From assembly GCA_029964075.1 (NCBI GenBank), contig CM057146.1, forward strand, positions 10,373,501-10,437,500: a stretch of DNA of 64,000 nucleotides, in the 5' to 3' direction. The notes under the pieces are model-generated. The model did no database searches, was not told the origin of the DNA, and saw only the letters and a list, made by a program, of their open reading frames with translations. Position 1 is the first letter of the stretch, and each line of letters opens with the position of its first letter. This document shows, one piece after another, positions 20,501 to 45,600 of the stretch. Made by a program: the position numbers and the translations under genes. The stretch is from Patiria pectinifera (lineage: Eukaryota > Echinodermata > Asteroidea > Valvatida > Asterinidae).

Positions 20501-23500
20501 AGCTTTTGTTGGTAGCCCTTTAGAGATTAGTTCTTAAGCCATATAACATTTGTGATTGTTACCTTCATGTATTAGTCCACTCTTCTGAACACACTCACCA
20601 AGACGCACAGCGAGTCTGCATCCTATGCCTTCACCACCTTGACCTGTATTCCGGGGGTCATTGAGGTGAGTTGAGGTCATTGTTTCCCCTCAAGTTTATT
20701 GCTACTTTAACCCTAACTCCCTAGCATAATTTACTGGAAGCCACACCCATCCTGGCAAATTCCAACACCATATGGGAAACTGCACACTCATATTTCTGAC
20801 TTTGATTCTGGAGGTGTGCCAACCCAATGGAAAAGACTGTCAGTTTAGGGGTACTGTACCCATCCTGACAGATTCCAACAAAACATGCCGTTGGGGTTTG
20901 ACAGGCCGTTTTCTGGCTTGTTGTCTCTATCGAATGCCATTTTGAGCAGGTGTATTCGACTCGCCACAAAGATATATCACAGATTGTCAGTGAATGTTGA
21001 TATGTAGTGCTTGAGTTGGCAATCTGCTGTATTTTTTTTTCCCATCGCTTTGTTGCTTTTTTTCCCTCTTAGTACAACGGGGCCAACATCCAGCTGCTGG
21101 ATCTTCCAGGAATCATTGAAGGGGCTTCTCAAGGTGACTTAAAAAAGAGTTTATTTGCCGAGTAGAAATTGCTTGATAAAACATTGAAATGAGTAGCTGT
21201 AAATGCACTTAGTCTTAGAGACATCATAGGCCAAGTTCGGGCAAGGACCATTAGTCGACTAGTGGTTGATTTGTGACGTACCTTACGCCTGCGCACTGAT
21301 AGCAACGTGCGAACGTCTCTAGTCAAACGCTGGTCAAAATGTCATCGCAAAACTTCTGGATCCTGGCTCTCTGCTAGCGTTATGAATGCGCACGGCTATT
21401 GGTTACCAGCGAAGCAACCAACCCCAGTAGGCTGGTTCCAAATAGTCGACTAGCGTAGTCAACCACCGTTGACTAGACAGAGTTAGGGCAACCATTGGTC
21501 AACTATAGTCCTTGCGCGAACTTGGCCCTAGTTGTCGTCACGTCCTATCAAAGTCATCACAAGTCCTCTAATGGCCCTCCCTCTCTGGCTGGCAATTTCA
21601 ACAAGGCCAGCCCAGCAGTCAAAAATAAATCAAGTGACTGTTCTTAAAAAGTTGAGAGTGCTCCCTGCCTTCATAAAGCAGGATTGACCGGCTGTGATTG
21701 TTATGAAACCTGATATAACTATGCTTTGGCTGTAGGAGATTGATAAGCCAGCTGTGCCTACCAGTCACCCACTTTTGTCTGGTGATGGAATTTGACTTTC
21801 ACAGTGCTTGCGAGAAATATGGTCTGACTGTTGGAGTGCTTTCGAGCGTGTTACTGTTGCTACTCCCAAGTGCAAGAAAAGGTTGCGTGCACATTACTCT
21901 CGGTGCATGAGTATTCTCCTGGCCCGAGTAGCTTACTTAACTCAGCACTGAAATTGAATAAGGCAAGGAACTTGGTCACAGTGTCCAAAAATGTTGTTGT
22001 GATCAATTGACAATTGTGTAGTGATGCGTGACTGAAATTAAATGAAACTCACAGGGGTTGAGGCTTAGGAGTATCTGCACAACTTTTCAAAAATTGACCT
22101 CATGGTGTTGTAGTTATTTCGAAAATAGTCAGACGAACACTTACTTTAGAAACCATTCAGCCAGCAGCTTTTTATCCTCATTTGTTACTTGAAAAGGCAA
22201 GGGTAGAGGTCGTCAGGTCATCGCCGTGGCGAGGACGGCTGACGTGGTCATCATGATGCTGGATGCAAACAAAGGAGATGTACAAAGGTTGGTTTCAAGC
22301 TTTGTTTGATTTTGTTTTGGATTTTGCTGTGTTTTAAAAGCACGCAGGAACATTGGTAATTATCCTGACTTACCTGCCATAGTAATGAGACGAACCTTGC
22401 TCAAAATGAACTGCGTAATACCCTGTGAAATTATTCCGCAAGAAATTATTCCAATTTGAAAAAAAAAAATCAATCCTGGAAGGTGGTTTTAAAAAAGTGT
22501 GCCTGTGGTCTCGTTAAGGAGACCCAAAATATTGTGCAAATGTTTTTTTATATATTTTCTTCAAAACGTATAGTATACAAATATTGACATTGTTTTCCCC
22601 AGGAAACTACTGACACAGGAGCTGGAGACCGTCGGCCTGAGACTGAACAAAGCCAAGCCAAACATATACTTCAAGGTGAGATTGCTCATAGCTTTTCTAT
22701 CTCTGTGTTTGGGGAGCATTTCAGACTGAAGCGTGGTCAGGTGCTGCAGCGAGACTAGCCCCATAAATGTGGCCATTTTACTGGACTACCTCCGTAAACA
22801 TAGGCCACACTTCCACATGTACAAAAATGTGTCGCACTTTGCCGAATTTTGATTTTCACATTTAGACTTAGTTTGTAGGGTTTTTTTTGCTTAAGAAGCA
22901 TACTCACCCTCTTTATAGGCTAATCAGAAAGTGCTGCCTTTTTCAGATGTCTATTTTTCGTGAAATTTCCAGATTCATTTGCACACGTTTGGGTATAGCC
23001 CCATAAATGTGGCCAGTTTACTGGACTGCCTCCGTAAACATAGGCCACACACCGACCGTATGGAAAACGTACTCGGCGAAATGTTGAACATGTTGAAAAA
23101 ATGTTGAAAGTGATTTCCACCATTTGTCCACATTGCGACTTCAGACCCAGTTTATTTAAGCTTTAAAAGTACACTTACCCTCTTAATAACAAAATGAGAA
23201 CCTTCGGCCAGTGTCAGTTGTCCAGCTGCTGCCTAATTTACGTCCTTTTCTGGAGCCTTTTTGGCAACTTGGATTCATTCTACCTCCTTCATTGTCCGTG
23301 GTCCAACTGAACAATGGCGTCGCGCAATATCAAAGGGCGGCGCAGGCCCGGTGGCTGTTACCTGCCTTCTGTCAATCCTTCATGTAAAGCGCGCCCTCAT
23401 GCGTATACACCCTCGGCCAGCTGGCGTCACGCACGTGCGTATGGACTACCGTACTGGCGTGTCCATACGCACGTCGTCGAGGGCCAGCTGGCGAGGGGTA

Positions 23501-26500
23501 TACGCATGAGCGCGCTTACATGAAGGATTGACAGAAGGCAGGTAACAGCGCCTGCGCCGCCCCTTTGATATTGCGCGACGCCATTGTTCAGTTGGACCAC
23601 GGACAATGAAGGAGGTAGAATGAATCCAAGTTGCCAAAAAGGCTCCAGAAAAGGACGTAAATTAGGCAGCAGCTGGACAACTGACACTGGCCGAAGGTTC
23701 TCATTTTGTTATTAAGAGGGTAAGTGTACTTTTAAAGCTTAAATAATCTGGGTCTGAAGTCGCAATGTGGACAAATGGTGGAAATCACTTTCAATATTTT
23801 TTCAACATGTTCAACATTTCGCCGAGTACGTTTTCCATACGGTCGGTGTGTGGCCTATGTTTACGGAGGCAGTCCAGTAAACTGGCCACATTTATGGGGC
23901 TAGTTTGGGTATCAAAATTTCAATATAAAATTTCACAAAAATTAGACATCTGAAAAAGGCAGCACTTTCTGATTAGCCTATAAAGAGGGTGAGTATGCTT
24001 CTAAAGCAAAAAAACCTACAAACTAAGCCTAAATGGGAAAATCAAAATTTGGCAAAGTGCGTCACGTTTTTGTACATGTGGATGTGTGGCCTATGTTTAC
24101 GGAGGTAGTCCAGTCAACAGGCCACATTTATGGGGCTACAGCGAGACAAACAAATAACTTGGTAGAGAGAGAAGATGTTTAGACTTCAAGTAAATTAATT
24201 TATTTAGAAAGATCAGATCTTATTTCTACTACTTGTTACTAATTACTTCTAATTTAAGGGGCAACTGAGATTTAAGTTCTTTAATGAAAGTACTGAATAA
24301 AGGAATTTGCTGTAGAAATAAATGCAAGGAAAACAATTAATTATGAGATGGGCGGGGCTCGGTGATGGTCACAGTCAGTGGGGTAGCTTATGGTAAAAGC
24401 ACCATAGCTCTACTCCCAACCCAGGGGGGATTTAACCAGTGTTGTAGTCAAGTCCTCCTCATCCGAGTCCGAGTCCGAGTCCGAGTCCTTGAGCAAAGGA
24501 CTCGAGTCCGAGTCCGAGTCCTTGTCAATTTTTGATGTCCGAGTCCGAGTCCGAGTCCTTGAAAAAAAGTCCTTATGTATCAAATTCAAGTCGCGGTTCA
24601 CCAATACTATATTAACGTTTTCAAAATGTCACTATCAAATGTCAGGTGATAGAGAAGGGGTAATGGTTTTGGCTGTATGCACTATGCAATGCATTCATTA
24701 TGTTTATAATGTACATTAAAAAAAAACTTGCATTATGAATCAATTGATCATTGATCAATCGGCAAGTTATTTTTGCGAGCGGCAGAACTGCGGAATTCGG
24801 TTCCACAGCAAAACCAAATCAAGGTGAAAGACATAAAATAATTGAAATAAAACACCTAAAAAAGACCCGATTTTGCCGGACTCGAGCCGGACTCGAAGCC
24901 AAGTCCTCGAGTCCTTGGGGTCCGAGTCCGAGTCCGAGTCCGAGTCCGAGAGCAAAGGACTCGAGTCCAAGTCCGAGTCCTTGAAAAAAGGACTCGAGTC
25001 CGGACTCGAGTCCGAGTCCCGAGTCCGAGTCCTACAACACTGGATTTAACTAAGTTGTCATGCACTACAACTTACTTGGTCATTACATCAAAGTTTTTCC
25101 CTTGCCACGCCCAGGCAAAACCTGCACAGCCCTCCACAGACAACCTATCCCTAGCACAGCACCCAGCAGACTGAAGAGCACATGGCTAGTTCAAATTCCA
25201 TGCCATTGGGGCCAACAATAGAATTATGCAAATAAGATGCTGCATGCCTGGCTGGACTGATACACACTCGGCTCAGGGGGTGTGATGGATGAGAGGGGCA
25301 GGCTAAACCAAAAATAGGTGGGGAGGAAGGTAAAGATGAAGGGCTATTTTCATTACAATATATAACTTTTCAAATGAAAAAGGACTGAGTACCAATAGTA
25401 GAGATATCATAAAATATGTCCCCAAAAAAGTGTCCGGCTGACAATCTTTGAAATAACTACAAAACCATGAAGTCAACTTTGGTATTTCTCACAATGTGCT
25501 CAGCTTTAGTGACGGTCCAGAGCTTTACAAAACATGTGTGCGCCGGGCACTGAGGCACTGAAGCGACCCAGTCATTGCGATCAAATCTGTCACCGTAATT
25601 TCAAATTCATATTGTTGATAACCATCTTTCAAATGCTTCCAAAGTACCTCATGAATAAGCCATTTGCGAGTTAAATTTGAATAAAATCTGGAACGCTGAC
25701 TTAATCCAATGCTTTGCACGTTTTAACTTTGCATTCTCCCGACCAAAGAGACTGTTACTATATCACATGATTCGGGGCAAGCCTTATGCTAGCAACCCCC
25801 AGCTCCGGCATGGTCCGGTGTCTTTGTGCCATTCTCACCCATTGTGAACAATGTATTGGTGCTGAGCGTCTCTTACGTAACTATGCAAGAGCTTGCCCCG
25901 AATCATGTGATTAGCAAGAGTGCCTTTGGTCTGGCGAATTCAAAGTTAAAATGTGACAAGCATTTTGAGCATGTCGGCGTACCAGATGTTTTTTAAATGT
26001 AAATCCCAAAGGGTATAGGTTACTGGCAAATGGTTTATTGTGAAGGATCTTGCAGAGTTCAGTTTTTCATTGATTTATATATTTATTTATGCAGATAAAG
26101 AAAGCCGGGGGTTTATCCTTCAACTCCACGCTGACGCTCACCAAGTGCAACGAGAAGCTCATCCAGTTAATCCTACACGAGTACAGTATCCTTTACTGGC
26201 ATTGCCAAGATACATTTGATTTATCGCCACCTCACGGCGCAGGGTTCTCTCCAACCAAACCTAGGGGAGTCAGGTTGGCGTAGCGATACTTTCCTCGCCT
26301 TCCACCGCTGTGACCCGGGTTCGAATCCCACCTGGGCCAACATGTGGATTGGGTTTTTAGTCCCTACCTGATTCCGTGGGTTTTGCACAGAATATTCTTC
26401 TGGGCTTTTCCTCCCACCTCTAAAACTATAACTTCTTCTCATTGTCTTCTCACCACAGGTTTCTTCAGGCTTGCAAGCTACAGTGCCTAGGGCGCTTTTG

Positions 26501-29500
26501 GGGAATCCTTGGTTTCATTACCAGAATAATTAATAAATAAATAAATAAATAAAAATGTACAACCTAAAGTCAGCGTCTCTTTTGTAGTAGGCAAAGATCG
26601 TATAGCGCTGCGCACAGTGGGTAGTAGGCAAGCCTTCAGAGCTGTGATGGATGGCAAAAAATAGCTGGGAGAAAAATGCGAAGCCAACACCGTGCTGGGT
26701 CGGCATGATTATGACAACCATATTATTGAATGGTGGCTGATTACAGGGAAACTGGATGGTCATGTGCTACTTTGACGTCATACGATTGGAACCTGTAAAG
26801 TTGAGCAATTTTGTTATTTTATTTGTTTCAGGCTTTGTAACTGTTCGAAAAATTAAGCTGTCAAAGCATTTTAACGTGCAAATCATGTACATCGATCACG
26901 ATTTTTCAAATGTAGCTTTTCCTTAGCGTTTTCCTCAGAAATTTTCAATGCCGAGGTTCTATTCAGGGATGACTGCACAGCGGATGAGTTCATAGACGTG
27001 GTGGTCGGCAACAGAATATACCTGCCTTGTATATATGTAAGTACAGGAGATAATATCTTCATTTTTCATAATCAACCCAATTACTCTAGCCAGCAACGGA
27101 GCTTGGTAGGATTGAGAGTCAGAGATCAGCCAGTGTGTCTTTGGCATACTGACCCATCGCATTGGCGTCAGCTTAATTTAACCACTTCACGCTGGCATTA
27201 TGTTTGGCTGAAGATTTTGGCACAATAGGCCATGCACAACGGCCAATTCACGATCAACACTAATTCGCAGTGCCTTTTATGTGGGCTTAGGGTGCATGGT
27301 GCACGACAGCAGCCACAATCAATTGTCTGTTGGATTTCTTTCTTTTCACCATTGAGGAAGTACCAGTGCACCAAGTGTATAGCATGAATAATTTCTGCAG
27401 TGTCTTCGGTAGTGTTTCCTTAATCAGCTCTTATGTATCTTAATAAGCCATTTGCGAGTAACCTATACCCTTTGGGATTTACATTTGAAAAACGTCTGGT
27501 ACAATGACTTGCTCAGAATGCTTGGCACATTTTAACCTTGAATTCTCCAGGCCAAAGACACTGTTGCTAATCACAAGATTCGGGGCAAGCTCTTGCATAG
27601 TTACGTAAGAGACGCTCAGCACCAATACATCGTTCACAATGGGTGAGAATGGTACAAAGACACCAGACCATGCCGGAGCTGGGGGTTGCTAGCATAAGGC
27701 TTGCCCCGAATCACGTGATATAGTAACAGTCTGTTTGGTCGGGAGAATGCTAGGTTAAAACGTGCAAAGCATTGTATTAAGTCGGCGTTCCAGATTTTAT
27801 TCAAATGTAACTCGCAAATGGCTTATTGTGACCTCTTTCCTTGAGTATTTGTAGCTTGATTGTACTTCCAATATTTTCAAAAGGTGTATAACAAGATAGA
27901 TCAGACGTCCATAGAGGAGGTGGATCGCATTGCCCACGAGCCCAACAGCGTGGTCATCAGCTGTGAGATGAAGCTGAATCTAGACTACCTCCTGGAGACG
28001 ACATGGGAGTATCTCAGCCTTATATGCATCTACACCAAGAGGAGAGGAGGTAAGGTACCAGACCTTGTAAAGGGCCTTGGCCATAGTGTAGTGAAGAATC
28101 AGCCAGATTTTAAAAATGGAAAAACAGAAACTTGGAATCGGAAGTTTTGAGAAGTAAACAGTGTTGCTACATGTATTTTGTGGATGTGAAATTTGAAATC
28201 TATGGATTTTAAAATTGGTAACGGAAATTTGAATCTCAAGTTTTGGGACTGAATTTTCAGATTTGGTATGAGCATGTACTGAACATGTTCAGTTAGCAAG
28301 AAAACAAATATGTATGTGTATCGGGGTTTGACTTTTTTTTCACAGCCGGGCCACTGAAACAGACTCTTAACAAGCCCGCAGGCATTTTCACTGGCCGCAG
28401 GTTTTTCTTTTATAGGGTCTCATAAACAATGTACACACATGTCAATCGTGTATCCTGAGGCAATCTTGTCAGTGTTTTTAATAAACAGATCTGATAATTT
28501 AACCCTAAATAGTTAGTACAATTAAACACAAATTGATACAGGTTTGCTCTCTGAATTTCATGATTCATTTTTTCCTGTCCTTTCATCTTTGCCGTAGCGC
28601 AATAATTTTGGACTCGCCAGCTGGGCTACTCAAGGAATAGTTTGACTAGCCTGCCGCTGTTTTGCCTAGCATATGGCTAGCAGGCTACCGCTAAGGTCAA
28701 ACCCTGCGTAAACTCTGTGTGCTTTGGGTCAACCAGCAGCTCTGTACTTAATATCTAATTTGTTGTTTTCTTTCCCCTTTTTCAGAGAAGCCCGATTTTG
28801 AAGGAGGAATTATCATGAGGAAAGGCTGCACAGTGGAACACGTCGTAAGTACACTCTTGTGAAAATTTAGAGTTGGAGTTCTGCACTACTGCTTTGAGAA
28901 ATGTTCAAAAACTGCACGACTTTTTGAAATCTGCTGATGTAAATTTATTGGTTTTCTTCTTCTTCTGCAGTGCCACGCTATACACAGAACTCTCGTCAGC
29001 AACTTCAAGTTTGCTCTTGTATGGGTAAGTCGTTCTCAAGAACTCCGAGCAGACTTTTACTCACATGTTAAGAAGTGAAGTTTACAAAATACGAGACATA
29101 AATATGTGCAAAAAAAAAATTTGTGTTGTATTTTCTCCAGGGAAGGGGTGTATCTTTGGTCAGGTATTCAGACATGGGGGGAAAAAGAAGTTGCGGGGAT
29201 TTCGGGACGCGCTGTTGTGTGTTCTTGATGTTGCAGGGCCCAATTTCATAGCACTGCTTAACAGTAAGCAGAAAAGTTGTGCTTACTATAGCAGAAAATC
29301 ATGCTGCTGCTTAAGCACTATTTCATGCCGTGAATGTGCTTACAGTTGCGCGCGCATGGAGATTTCTATTGTTACGTCACTGATTTAAGCAAAGTTTTCT
29401 TCTGGGGTTAAGCGTGCTTTTGCTGTGCTTACTGCTTAACGGTCCCTATGAAACAGATGGAGGCTCGGTAAGCACAAAGTCGGCTGTTAAGCAGCACTAT

Positions 29501-34206: not shown

Positions 34207-34720
34207 TCATTGAGCGCACCAGTGATAGAATTTGTAGGTGAGATAGATGGCCGCCAGTCCGGCGATGACGTTGTGTAGCGTCTTACGATACTTGTCCTCC
34301 CGTCGGACTAGGACCACAGGGGTAGCCGTGGTGAGGGTGTGCAGGGGCAAGCGGGCCAGGCTCCTGGTGTCGTACTCCACTTGGTACTTGCAGCAGGGGT
34401 CAAACTGCCAGGAGATGCCGTAGAGCGTGGCGCACGCCACGCTGGCCGTGCCGAAGGGAATGCTGACAAAGTTCGTGGCTTTGGCGGGGAGCATCCAGGG
34501 GGAGACCAGGCACGCCATGCCGGCCAGGACCGCCGTCTTGTGCAGGCAGTTGCCCACGGTGATCCAGCGTGCCGTCTCGTCGCCGAGCCGCGACGGCTCG
34601 ATGATGATGATGCTGCGGCCGGCCTCCAGGGCCTGCTCCAGTTCGTACTCAAATTGTTCCTGGGCGTCGCCATTGTCGTAGATCTCGTGGATGATGGCGC
34701 AGTCAGTGGGCAACATTTCT
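34207..34720 (-). CDS. TMEM11: TMEM11, mitochondrial membrane protein (main exon, 5' part missing)
   Basis: The last exon starts after a CTTGCAG acceptor (AG at 34722-34721) and runs 514 nt to TGA at 34209-34207, giving about 170 residues. It matches TMEM11 throughout: ATD/PTDC start region, FEYELEQALEA, GDETARWITVGNCLHKTAVL, TLYGISWQFDPCCKYQVEYD, RLPLHTLTTATPVVLVR. Hydrophobic segments lie around residues 58-80, 88-110 and at the C-terminus (NVIAGLAAIYLTYKF). TMEM11 (fly PMI) shapes mitochondrial cristae and associates with MICOS. The human protein is 192 residues, so a short first exon of about 20 codons should lie upstream at higher coordinates; I could not identify it. The ATG at 34716 is in frame but probably internal. 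Confidence 0.95.
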
Positions 34721-34929
34721 CTGCAAGGGGAGAAGCAAGGAAACTGAACAGGTCAAATATTACTGAATTGACTGGAGCACCTGACACGGTGGACACTCAC
34801 GAAGCTGTAAATGCAGTCAATCACAATTCAACAATGACAAAGAAATTATATATGCCTTTATCATACTTCTTTAAAACTACAGGTATTCATAAAATTGAAA
34901 AAAAAAAATGTCTAGTTTAAGTACAGCAG

Positions 34930-35460: not shown

Positions 35461-35515
35461 AACCAATTTAATTCTTTCCAAACTGTATTGCCACGACTGC
35501 ACTGTGCAAGACGTA

Positions 35516-35569
35516 CTCATAGAACTACGAGGCTCCACGTACGTGGAGCCTCATAGTTCTAGGAGTATG
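35516..35569. repeat. Solo hairpin, TACTCNTAGAACTAYGAGGC type
   Basis: A near-perfect palindrome of about 52 bp centred on CCACGTACGTGG, with arms TAGAACTACGAGGCTCCACG and CGTGGAGCCTCATAGTTCTA. It matches the hairpin found at both ends of the 749-bp palindrome at 44645-45393. Confidence 0.85.
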
Positions 35570-42600: not shown

Positions 42601-45600
42601 GAAATTCGGACTAGGCCAAAAAAAAAAGTCTCCGGTTTCTGGTATGGAGCTTGCCCAAAAAGTGGTGTGGCGACGCGTTTTTTTTTGTTTTTTTTTACCT
42701 GACTTTTTTGCTTCAAAGTGTCGGCTCATGACTCCAAATGGTGCCCGACTAAACTTAGTGCAAATATATGGGAGTCCAGAGAGGCCACATAAAGCTTATT
42801 CTCGACCATAACCCAATCTAAAAACACGTTAAAATTGTGCAGCAGCAGGATTCCAGTCAAACCAGTGAGTTTGGCGGTTTTGAGACATCATCTTTCATTG
42901 AAAAAAAAAAACTTTTTCATTTTGCCGACGCGCATGGCTACGGCGACGCGCGCGCATACCAGAAACCGGAGACTTTTTTTTTTGGCCTTACATAAAACAC
43001 TTCATTTTGCGATGGATCAACACAGCTTGGAAATTCCTAGTTTTTGAGTAAAATCCATGTCTATTTCATGATAATCTTTTGGAGAACGTAGTCAACTATA
43101 GCAATTGCTCTGTGGAGACGTATACAATCTTTTGTTCCCTATTATGCACATGTCTCCATAGGGTTGTGAATTACAAATCACGCACACTGATTCAATGTCC
43201 CAGTGTGCATGTGAGGCAAAACTGCACCAAATATACTGTGCCACTTACCAGATCTGTTGCATGTAGCCACTGTTCCATTTCGTCGACATCAACATTGGGT
43301 GGAAGGCCCTTAAATAACAGAAATAAAAACAAATTAAAATATAATAACAAAATCAGTTTGATGATCACTCTCACTGATAATTTTTTTTCATCTGAAATTG
43401 TTTAATATTTCTTTTGCTCACTGTTTTGAGTTCACTTTTTGCTGAAAACATTGAGATTATTGACACCATCTCTGAGTAAAATATTCTCCCCACTTAGCAG
43501 CCACGAAAAGATCGCACAGATTCCTACTCAGAGAAAAACACTGTTGGAATATTATTCCGTCATCTTCCAGCTTGTGAATTCCATCTGCTTTGTGTGATTC
43601 ACAACGCAAAGTAAATACATGTACTGGTACAACTACTATACAAATATTGAATGCTTCGAGTGGTGTAGTAAAACTAGCCTCCCGAGGTGATCCATGGACC
43701 ATTCTATTTTCCCGAGGCAAAGCCGAGGGAAAATAGAATGGTCCATGGATCACCGAGGGAGGCTAGTTTTACTTCACCACGAGATAAAGCATTCAATATT
43801 TGTTTTATAACACTTCACCCACAGATTCTGCTTGATTTTAATATTTTAAATTATCTAAATCTGAACACAGTTGAAATAAACTTCAATTTCAATACAAAAT
43901 TGGTGGAAAATGTATTTCTCTCTTCCAAACTACCCCTTCACGAAATGTTTGAACCCAAGTCTGCGGCGCGCTCTCTTTGGAACAATACGCGCTACGCGCA
44001 CACCAGCATCCATTTGCACACAAATACCGCGCCGTGGAAATAGTACTTTGGTTGCTAATGGTATAGTACTTTGGTTGCTACGGGTATAGTACTTTTGGCC
44101 GTGCACAGAAAGATAGCAAAATTAGAAAGTAACATGTGACTCGCTCTCGGCCAATCAAGACACAGAATCTGTGGGTGAGGTGTTATAAATGTAGTTATAG
44201 TTGTAGGGATATGCAGAATATACCGAATAGTTGATCGACCACTGAGCATCCAAACAACATTTTACCAAATAAAATATTCCGAAAATTGAGACGTTTCGTG
44301 AAGATGATGAAAAACGCGCACGCTGTAATGTTATCTGTGTACATGTAAGTAGCGAGATTTTGTTTGTTTATAATATTTAAGAGCCTATGAATGCTATAAA
44401 TATTGAAAAAGAAAATAAATGAAATCTTGGTCACGGGCGAACGTGTGACTGCTTTTCACCCCATCCAAAGTGGCACATGAAATAGTACTCATGATATGCT
44501 GCAGCTGTGACAAAATTTTGTTTACTTTTTTTTTTTGGCATTGCAAAATCACTATTTTTCCTGATATAGGCCTATAGCAACTCTGAAGGAAAGATGTGTA
44601 GCTACACATGATGACCGCGCTGCGCTGTGCCAACGTTAACTTTGTTTACTCCTAGAACTATGAGGCTCCACGTAGTGGAGCCTCATAGAGTTAGAACCCC
44701 GCAAAATTGTTGTCAGCACAAAACACTAATTAAGTACAAAAACGTCCATCCCAACCAAGCTTTTTCCCACAGAACCGCTGCACAGTTTGCCCCTAAACTC
44801 TGTACAATACCTCATGACATACTCACGTTATGTGCACCAAACAAACATCGGTGGATTCTGTCAGTTTTTCGGCAAAAATGATGAAAAATATGCCCTTTCC
44901 GCACTGAGCCAACCTGACACTTGAAACGTGCACGCGCGCAGAATGATCGCAGTCATTTTCGGGTTCGATCGCTCGGAGCGCGCCGTGGGGGGTACGTACT
45001 TGCACTTGTACGCATGCGCATACTATCGTTCCACTCCTACACCATACCCCCCGCGGCGCGCTCTGAGCGATCGATCCGAAAATGACTGCAATCATTCTGC
45101 GCGCGTGCGAGTTTCAAGTGTCAGGTTGGCTCAGTGCGGAAAGGGCATATTTTTCATCATTTTTGCCGAAAAACCGACAGAATCCACCGATGTTTGTTTG
45201 GTGCACATAACGTGAGTATGTCATGAGGTATTGTACAGAGTTTAGGGGCAAACTGTGCAGCGGTTCTGTGGGAAAAAGCTTGGTTGGGATAGACGTTTTT
45301 GTACTTAATTAGTGTTTTGTGCTGACAACAATTTTGCGGGGTTCTAACTCTATGAGGCTCCACTACGTGGAGCCTCATAGTTCTAGGAGTAAACTTTGTT
45401 AACTTCACATATAAAAAGCTACAACTACCACACTACATAACTGAAAAAACTCAGCCGACTAAGAAGTGGATGTGCAAAGTGTACCCTAACAGTCAATGCT
45501 TTCCTGTGAATATATTCTCTGTCACTCAGATTTGTGTACAGCAGCTACATTTTGTACAGCTACATTTAAGTGTATCAGACCTGTATGAAATCAGGTAGGC

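Follow-up and report, generated by a model that had tools for sequence, protein, structure and literature searches.

Sequential insertion of two palindromic miniature elements with common ends, and tail-to-head pairing of their relatives at 9-bp spacing, in Patiria pectinifera

Mutator-like elements (MULEs) duplicate 8 to 11 bp of their target (PMC6446971), and several described systems have features in common with the locus reported here. Tm1 of root-knot nematodes (Mutator/Foldback, Phantom-like; PMC3169594) combines foldback-type inverted ends with mostly 9-bp duplications, and it also has many non-coding copies and nested insertions. Muta1 of Aedes aegypti (a MULE, "type2 Foldback"; PMC5225508) makes duplications of 8 or 9 bp, described there as without apparent sequence preference, and has hundreds of non-autonomous derivatives. 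In double insertions, or tandem dimers of transposable elements (McGurk and Barbash 2018, via PMC12628747 and PMC7214746), a second element lands at the duplicated target of the first, leaving the order element-duplication-element. As kinds, foldback-like families with 9-bp duplications, nested miniature inverted-repeat transposable elements (MITEs), and double insertions all have precedents. We examined a 64,000-nucleotide stretch of Patiria pectinifera DNA (assembly GCA_029964075.1, contig CM057146.1, positions 10,373,501 to 10,437,500; here, the window) in which a 907-bp palindromic element sits inside a 467-bp one with the same ends. We consider it likely that both are non-autonomous foldback-type MITEs that a transposase acting in trans inserted in succession, that the inner copy reached the center of the outer one by chance, and that the 9 bp adjacent to resident element ends are a favored target.

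The 19-bp terminus TAGCCCCATAAATGTGGCC occurs four times in the window, each time exactly (the search tolerated up to 3 mismatches), at 22756 and 22996 on the forward strand and at 23902 and 24138 on the reverse strand; 100 shuffles of the window gave a mean of 0.00 sites. These termini delimit an outer and an inner element, each between exact 9-bp duplications (Table 1), which confirms the nest proposed in an earlier reading of the letters alone (the sequence-only reading). Once the insert and one copy of the duplication are subtracted, the outer element (22756 to 24138) measures 467 bp, and its left half (22756 to 22995) is 95 to 97% identical to the best genome matches listed. Both elements are near-complete palindromes, as that reading had also held: the inverted arms of the inner element extend over 342 nt at 99%, with more paired stretches further inside, and those of the outer element comprise 131 nt at 92% plus 87 nt at 97%. 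The two have ~55 bp of their ends in common (96%), with no other match reported between them, and thus represent two subfamilies with common ends; the description of the outer element as another member of the inner one's terminal inverted repeat family was accurate. The outer element was in place first, and the inner one entered it later. The target of the inner insertion corresponds to positions 231 to 239 (center, 235) of a 467-bp empty sibling, the axis of symmetry lies at ~234 to 235, and the inner copy sits ~1 bp from the axis, as near to the center as had been noticed, within the 43-nt loop that separates the outer arms.

Table 1 Window positions of the nested elements and their target-site duplications
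Feature	Positions	Strand	Remarks
Outer target-site duplication CAGCGAGAC, left copy	22747-22755		exact, 9 bp
Outer palindromic element (A type), left part to the insertion point	22756-22995	+	includes the target later duplicated
Inner target-site duplication GTTTGGGTA, left copy	22987-22995		exact, 9 bp
Inner palindromic element (B type)	22996-23902	+	907 bp
Inner target-site duplication GTTTGGGTA, right copy	23903-23911		exact, 9 bp
Outer palindromic element, right part	23903-24138	+	
Outer target-site duplication CAGCGAGAC, right copy	24139-24147		exact, 9 bp

Because palindromes are difficult to assemble, such a nest could be an artifact of assembly. All seven of the empty siblings compared hold one target copy, as GTTTGCGTA, with the loop unbroken, and the two target copies in the window both read GTTTGGGTA, which differs at one base from all seven siblings. 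Since the siblings' target is single copy and the base that was duplicated is the window's own variant, the nest is a real insertion; a variant of the outer copy that is present on both sides of the insert would be hard to obtain by mis-joining reads from different copies. Moreover, the two duplications are exact and lie in register, one pair within the other, and similar nests with exact duplications are found at L019, L052, and L072. We therefore regard an assembly artifact as scarcely credible.

The family to which these elements belong is large. In 613.5 Mb of genome (1,020 contigs), we counted 2,047 exact 19-bp termini (1,020 forward and 1,027 reverse), and a control with the reversed pattern gave 0; viral contigs, when scanned, held none. 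The sequence-only reading had suggested tabulating duplication lengths across such a search, and we did so for 46 elements, namely, neighboring ends of plus and minus orientation, with at most 4 mismatches, that lie 250 to 1,500 bp apart in the fetched loci, together with the outer window element. This sample is non-random: L030 to L058 were chosen by similarity to the outer half and L009 to L028 by their location on contig 1, the remaining loci are long copies, nests, or tandem pairs, and L001 to L008, L029, and the MULE loci were excluded as duplicates or irrelevant. In 21 elements, the longest exact duplication measured 9 bp; one element had 8 bp, one had 10 bp, and none had 3 to 7 bp, making 9 bp the dominant length. 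Five of the 21 copies with an exact 9-bp duplication have the same target within a repeat (L042, L043, L054, L055, and L068). When flanks from different elements were paired as a control, 17 of 2,070 pairs agreed at 8 or 9 of 9 bases (composites included). Across 19 duplications, each read in both orientations, position 1 was G in 20 of 38 and position 9 was C in 20 of 38, a weak, symmetric target preference without a strong motif. A 63-bp piece and a 467-type element occur together as a composite inside a larger repeat at six of the 20 contig 1 places (L012, L014, L015, L020, L021, and L025); blocks holding these elements are thus themselves amplified.

Members of the family also lie tail to head. 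A strict exact search for such pairs with spacers of 0 to 30 bp found eight places, with four spacers of exactly 9 bp (four different 9-mers), one of 14 bp, two identical ones of 20 bp, and one of 29 bp; the same search at 31 to 91 bp found 0, using a pattern that demands one non-G base midway and may lose a few. With the spacer fixed at 9 bp and up to 3 mismatches allowed, there were 18 junctions, against 0 in the control. This looser search was made at 9 bp only, spacer letters were displayed for five of the 18 junctions, and most of the 18 are known from the pattern match alone. A single array on contig 21 accounts for two of them, and another two, on contig 20, have identical spacers. Given some two thousand exact ends across 613 Mb, far less than one junction would be expected by chance at any one spacing. 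The 9 bp next to resident ends have been used repeatedly.

In L032 (1491 to 2355), GATTGTGAA is followed by a 764-bp compound element, by GATTGTGAA again, by a 74-bp palindrome (2273 to 2346) with ends of the CACTAGTGTGGCC sister type, and by a third GATTGTGAA. This order of duplication, element, duplication, element, and duplication is the complete double-insertion pattern. L074 reads CCCAGGATG, E1, CCCAGGATG, E2, and L075 reads sister-type end, CGAATAACC, E1, CGAATAACC, E2; in both, the spacer equals the left flank. In L027, the duplication of a 1,344-bp sister element (end, TAGCCCCACTAGTGTGGCC) is 10 bp long, GGGCATGATG, and lies directly against the next element. Spacers that equal the duplication in length and sequence, between neighbors that are independent, characterize double insertions, and this is what we find (L032, L074, and L075; 18 junctions). 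The tail-to-head pairs are thus double insertions into a single site, an event type already known, and when the family lands near a relative, it does favor the 9 bp immediately outside an end already in place, so that the two elements of a tail-to-head pair have one duplication in common.

The same pairs could instead be tandem duplications, or preformed pairs that moved together; they are tandem, they have one 9-mer in common, and the spacer seen twice on contig 20 may reflect one event copied. Against this, neighbors are only ~80% identical in L074 and 78 to 82% in L076, which excludes a recent tandem duplication there, and one neighbor has a different terminus, of the CACTAGTGTGGCC kind, in L027, L032, and L075. 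The outer flank equals the spacer in L074, L075, and L032, which would not be seen in a moved pair, and we consider origins other than independent double insertion very improbable. The sequence-only reading offered a different view of where insertions fall, namely, that foldback elements are preferentially hit in their hairpin loop or cruciform tip and that nests should cluster at palindrome centers, as the window nest, in its 43-nt loop, would suggest. A nest in a 467-bp outer element leaves two like-oriented ends on each side of the insert, separated by s on the first side and by 476 − s on the second; bins of 78 to 260 bp cover most insertion positions, the range searched begins ~78 bp from the element end, and the search requires exact 14-mers at both ends, so that nests with damaged ends escape. 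The central bin (200 to 260 bp) held two matches genome-wide, both of them ends of the window nest itself, in contrast to six at 139 to 199 bp and 10 at 78 to 138 bp, equal-width off-center bins in which not all matches are simple nests. These 18 matches represent 14 places, only one of them central, and four of the 14 have equal spacing and look like one nest copied (two of the four, L052 and L073, were read and have the same spacing). Five simple nests were read; the window insertion is at 235 of 467, and the other four lie ~106 bp (L052/L073), ~112 bp (L018/L019), ~119 bp (L072), and 160 bp (L069, whose right side is lost) from an outer end. L032 was rejected as a nest at position 287 because its complete read shows the double insertion, and L070 and L071 were rejected as simple nests because of other palindromes or an inverted 9-mer at the junction. 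At 421 to 481 bp, where central nests of 907-bp elements would fall, there were 10 matches, four of which coincide with tail-to-head pairs. Among 19 insertions scored for target palindromy, none of the 17 with controls exceeded the control maximum, on a score that admits small loops only and would miss a 43-nt loop; L074 and L075 were scored without control sites, and the top score was that of L075 (10.5), where the short left flank terminates in another element. A preference for the loop is therefore unsupported and, in our judgment, improbable, and the central position of the window nest is most likely due to chance, although five readable simple nests are too few to compel that reading.

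Mutator-like mobilization, also put forward in the sequence-only reading, is plausible but undemonstrated: the 9-bp duplications (21 of 46 elements) lie within the MULE range, and no coding copy with these ends was found. MULE domains occur at 30 places in the genome at an E value of ≤0.001, and 11 of these are in open frames of 537 to 644 codons. Two MULE proteins were scanned, of which that of L062 also has a PHD-finger match below the curated cutoff. L062 and L063 (MULE group) were rejected as coding partners, having 21-bp inverted ends unlike those of the family and no shared 8- to 11-mer at the ends tried. The four long copies on contig 1 (L065 to L068) have by eye no coding sequence, their extra length consisting of other palindromes and repeats; open frames of at least 160 codons in the fetched loci (43 rows) are by eye repeats, masked N, or host genes; and a Pfam scan of two locus frames and four window frames had no DDE transposase family among its matches. 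Merlin, P-type, and hAT superfamilies can make duplications near 9 bp, and a mover from one of these would be in keeping with no coding copy having been found. To our knowledge, the ends (TAGCCCC...) match no known terminus. The exact lengths of 8, 9, and 10 bp with a strong mode at 9, however, fit MULEs (PMC6446971; 8 or 9 bp for Muta1, PMC5225508), and they also agree with Tm1 (PMC3169594). The Merlin, P, and hAT families were not searched, and this alternative is thus judged on duplication length alone; on that measure it is rather unlikely. From the duplication length and the resident MULE genes, we infer that a MULE-type helper transposase is likely to have acted in trans.

It is important to note that several observations weigh against our overall reading of sequential insertion in trans with a chance central hit and a favored end-adjacent target. 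Half of the sample (23 of 46 elements) has no exact duplication (no run of 3 to 13 bp); six of these are the amplified composite, seven others retain 7 or 8 of 9 bases, and L032 had been matched to the wrong end, its correct pair showing an exact 9-bp duplication. An offset of ~1 bp from the axis has a probability of ~0.7% for one uniform insertion and ~3% over five, and the closeness of the window insertion to the axis is suggestive at most, with no other observation in favor of loop targeting. The far right flank is unreadable in L074 to L076, and the right flank of the second element in L027 is without a match. Finally, the autonomous copy that the sequence-only reading proposed to look for was found neither among the long copies L065 to L068 nor in the six of 34 MULE places that were read (±1.5 kb only), none of which has the terminus at up to 5 mismatches.

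In the sequence of events that we favor, a transposase acting in trans would make a 9-bp staggered cut; the 467-bp outer copy landed first, duplicating CAGCGAGAC, and a 907-bp copy of a sister subfamily landed later in its central loop, duplicating GTTTGGGTA. The enzyme might go further and actively target resident elements of its own and sister families at their outer edge, cutting exactly at the boundary and 9 bp outside it, with arrays growing end to end; this is possible, though we think it doubtful. It would be a eukaryotic parallel to the targeting by IS30 of its own terminal repeats, as opposed to a mere second hit on a locally favored 9-mer, the published "double insertion" explanation (PMC12628747 and PMC7214746), and between these two the diversity of targets favors edge recognition. 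Targeting of hairpin tips, attractive but unsupported, thereby gives way to a measurable feature, the exact 9-bp tail-to-head spacing, which is modestly the more interesting lead. If end targeting is true, foldback MITEs of high copy number have an inherent way of forming tandem arrays and composite repeats, and the 9-bp spacing, being exact, offers a simple genome-wide assay for it.

Other palindromes and repeats were seen along the way. Another palindromic element in the window (44635 to 45403) has ends TACTCCTAGAACT (~44647 to 45391) and is flanked by an exact 9-bp duplication of its own, AACTTTGTT; at 35514 to 35567, a 54-bp palindrome has ends resembling those of the TACTCCTAGAACT element and flanks alike at 7 of 9 bases. 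L070 (848 to 973) contains a ~54-bp palindrome, TACTCCTAG...CTAGGAGTA, with GTCGGTGTG on both sides, and a 907-type element ends 10 bp away; with its 9-bp duplication, the palindrome may be a very small mobile foldback. In L071 (281 to 889), copies of the 9-mer GTTGAAAGG lie at the two outer sides, and a further copy lies inside, between two element ends, where its arrangement is inverted rather than direct. The window also holds two partly palindromic 386-bp repeats (25654 to 26039 and 27442 to 27827) that are 93% alike, with a frame between them (26875 to 27225) containing a C-terminal MMR_HSR1 extension domain (PF16897). A frame at 34210 to 34752 on the reverse strand matches Mito_morph_reg (PF14972; E value, 1.1e-73) and is probably a host gene.

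With respect to class, the family shows the duplications of MULEs (9 bp in 21 of 46 elements, 8 bp in one, 10 bp in one, 3 to 7 bp in none, and 23 without) and their long terminal inverted repeats, the arms occupying almost the whole element. Very long inverted repeats around a short middle are also those of Foldback elements of the FB/Phantom/Tm1 type. Another Foldback trait, the construction of the inverted repeats from short tandem motifs, is absent, no tandem array being detected in 22756 to 24138 at the default score; the direct repeats in this interval are the shared ends, the outer duplication, and a 12-mer. The elements have the properties of MITEs, being non-coding, 467 and 907 bp long, and represented by 2,047 exact termini, with inverted ends and a 9-bp duplication. 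The family may be undescribed, a statement made without comparison with Repbase or Dfam.

Against the systems named at the outset, the differences are as follows. Tm1 ends consist of a variable number of 13- to 15-bp motifs and a coding copy is known (PMC3169594), whereas the arms of the window family have no tandem motifs and no coding copy was found. Muta1 has 12-bp subterminal repeats in its ends, and its enzyme is known (PMC5225508). The tandem dimers described in PMC12628747 and PMC7214746 are those of Drosophila elements such as hobo; here the partners are diverged subfamilies or sister families of palindromic elements with 9-bp duplications. Non-nested, end-to-end clusters of non-autonomous MULEs are also found in the microsatellite-linked arrays of gSaTar (PMC5907723) and Ac-mMITE (PMC8449440), in which the spacers are microsatellites, while the spacers seen here are 9-mers of duplication length. 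IS30, as portrayed in PMC9333248, is bacterial, proceeds through a circle or dimer intermediate, and makes a 2-bp duplication at other targets; compared here by insertion position alone, it has in common with this family insertion directly beside a resident terminal repeat.

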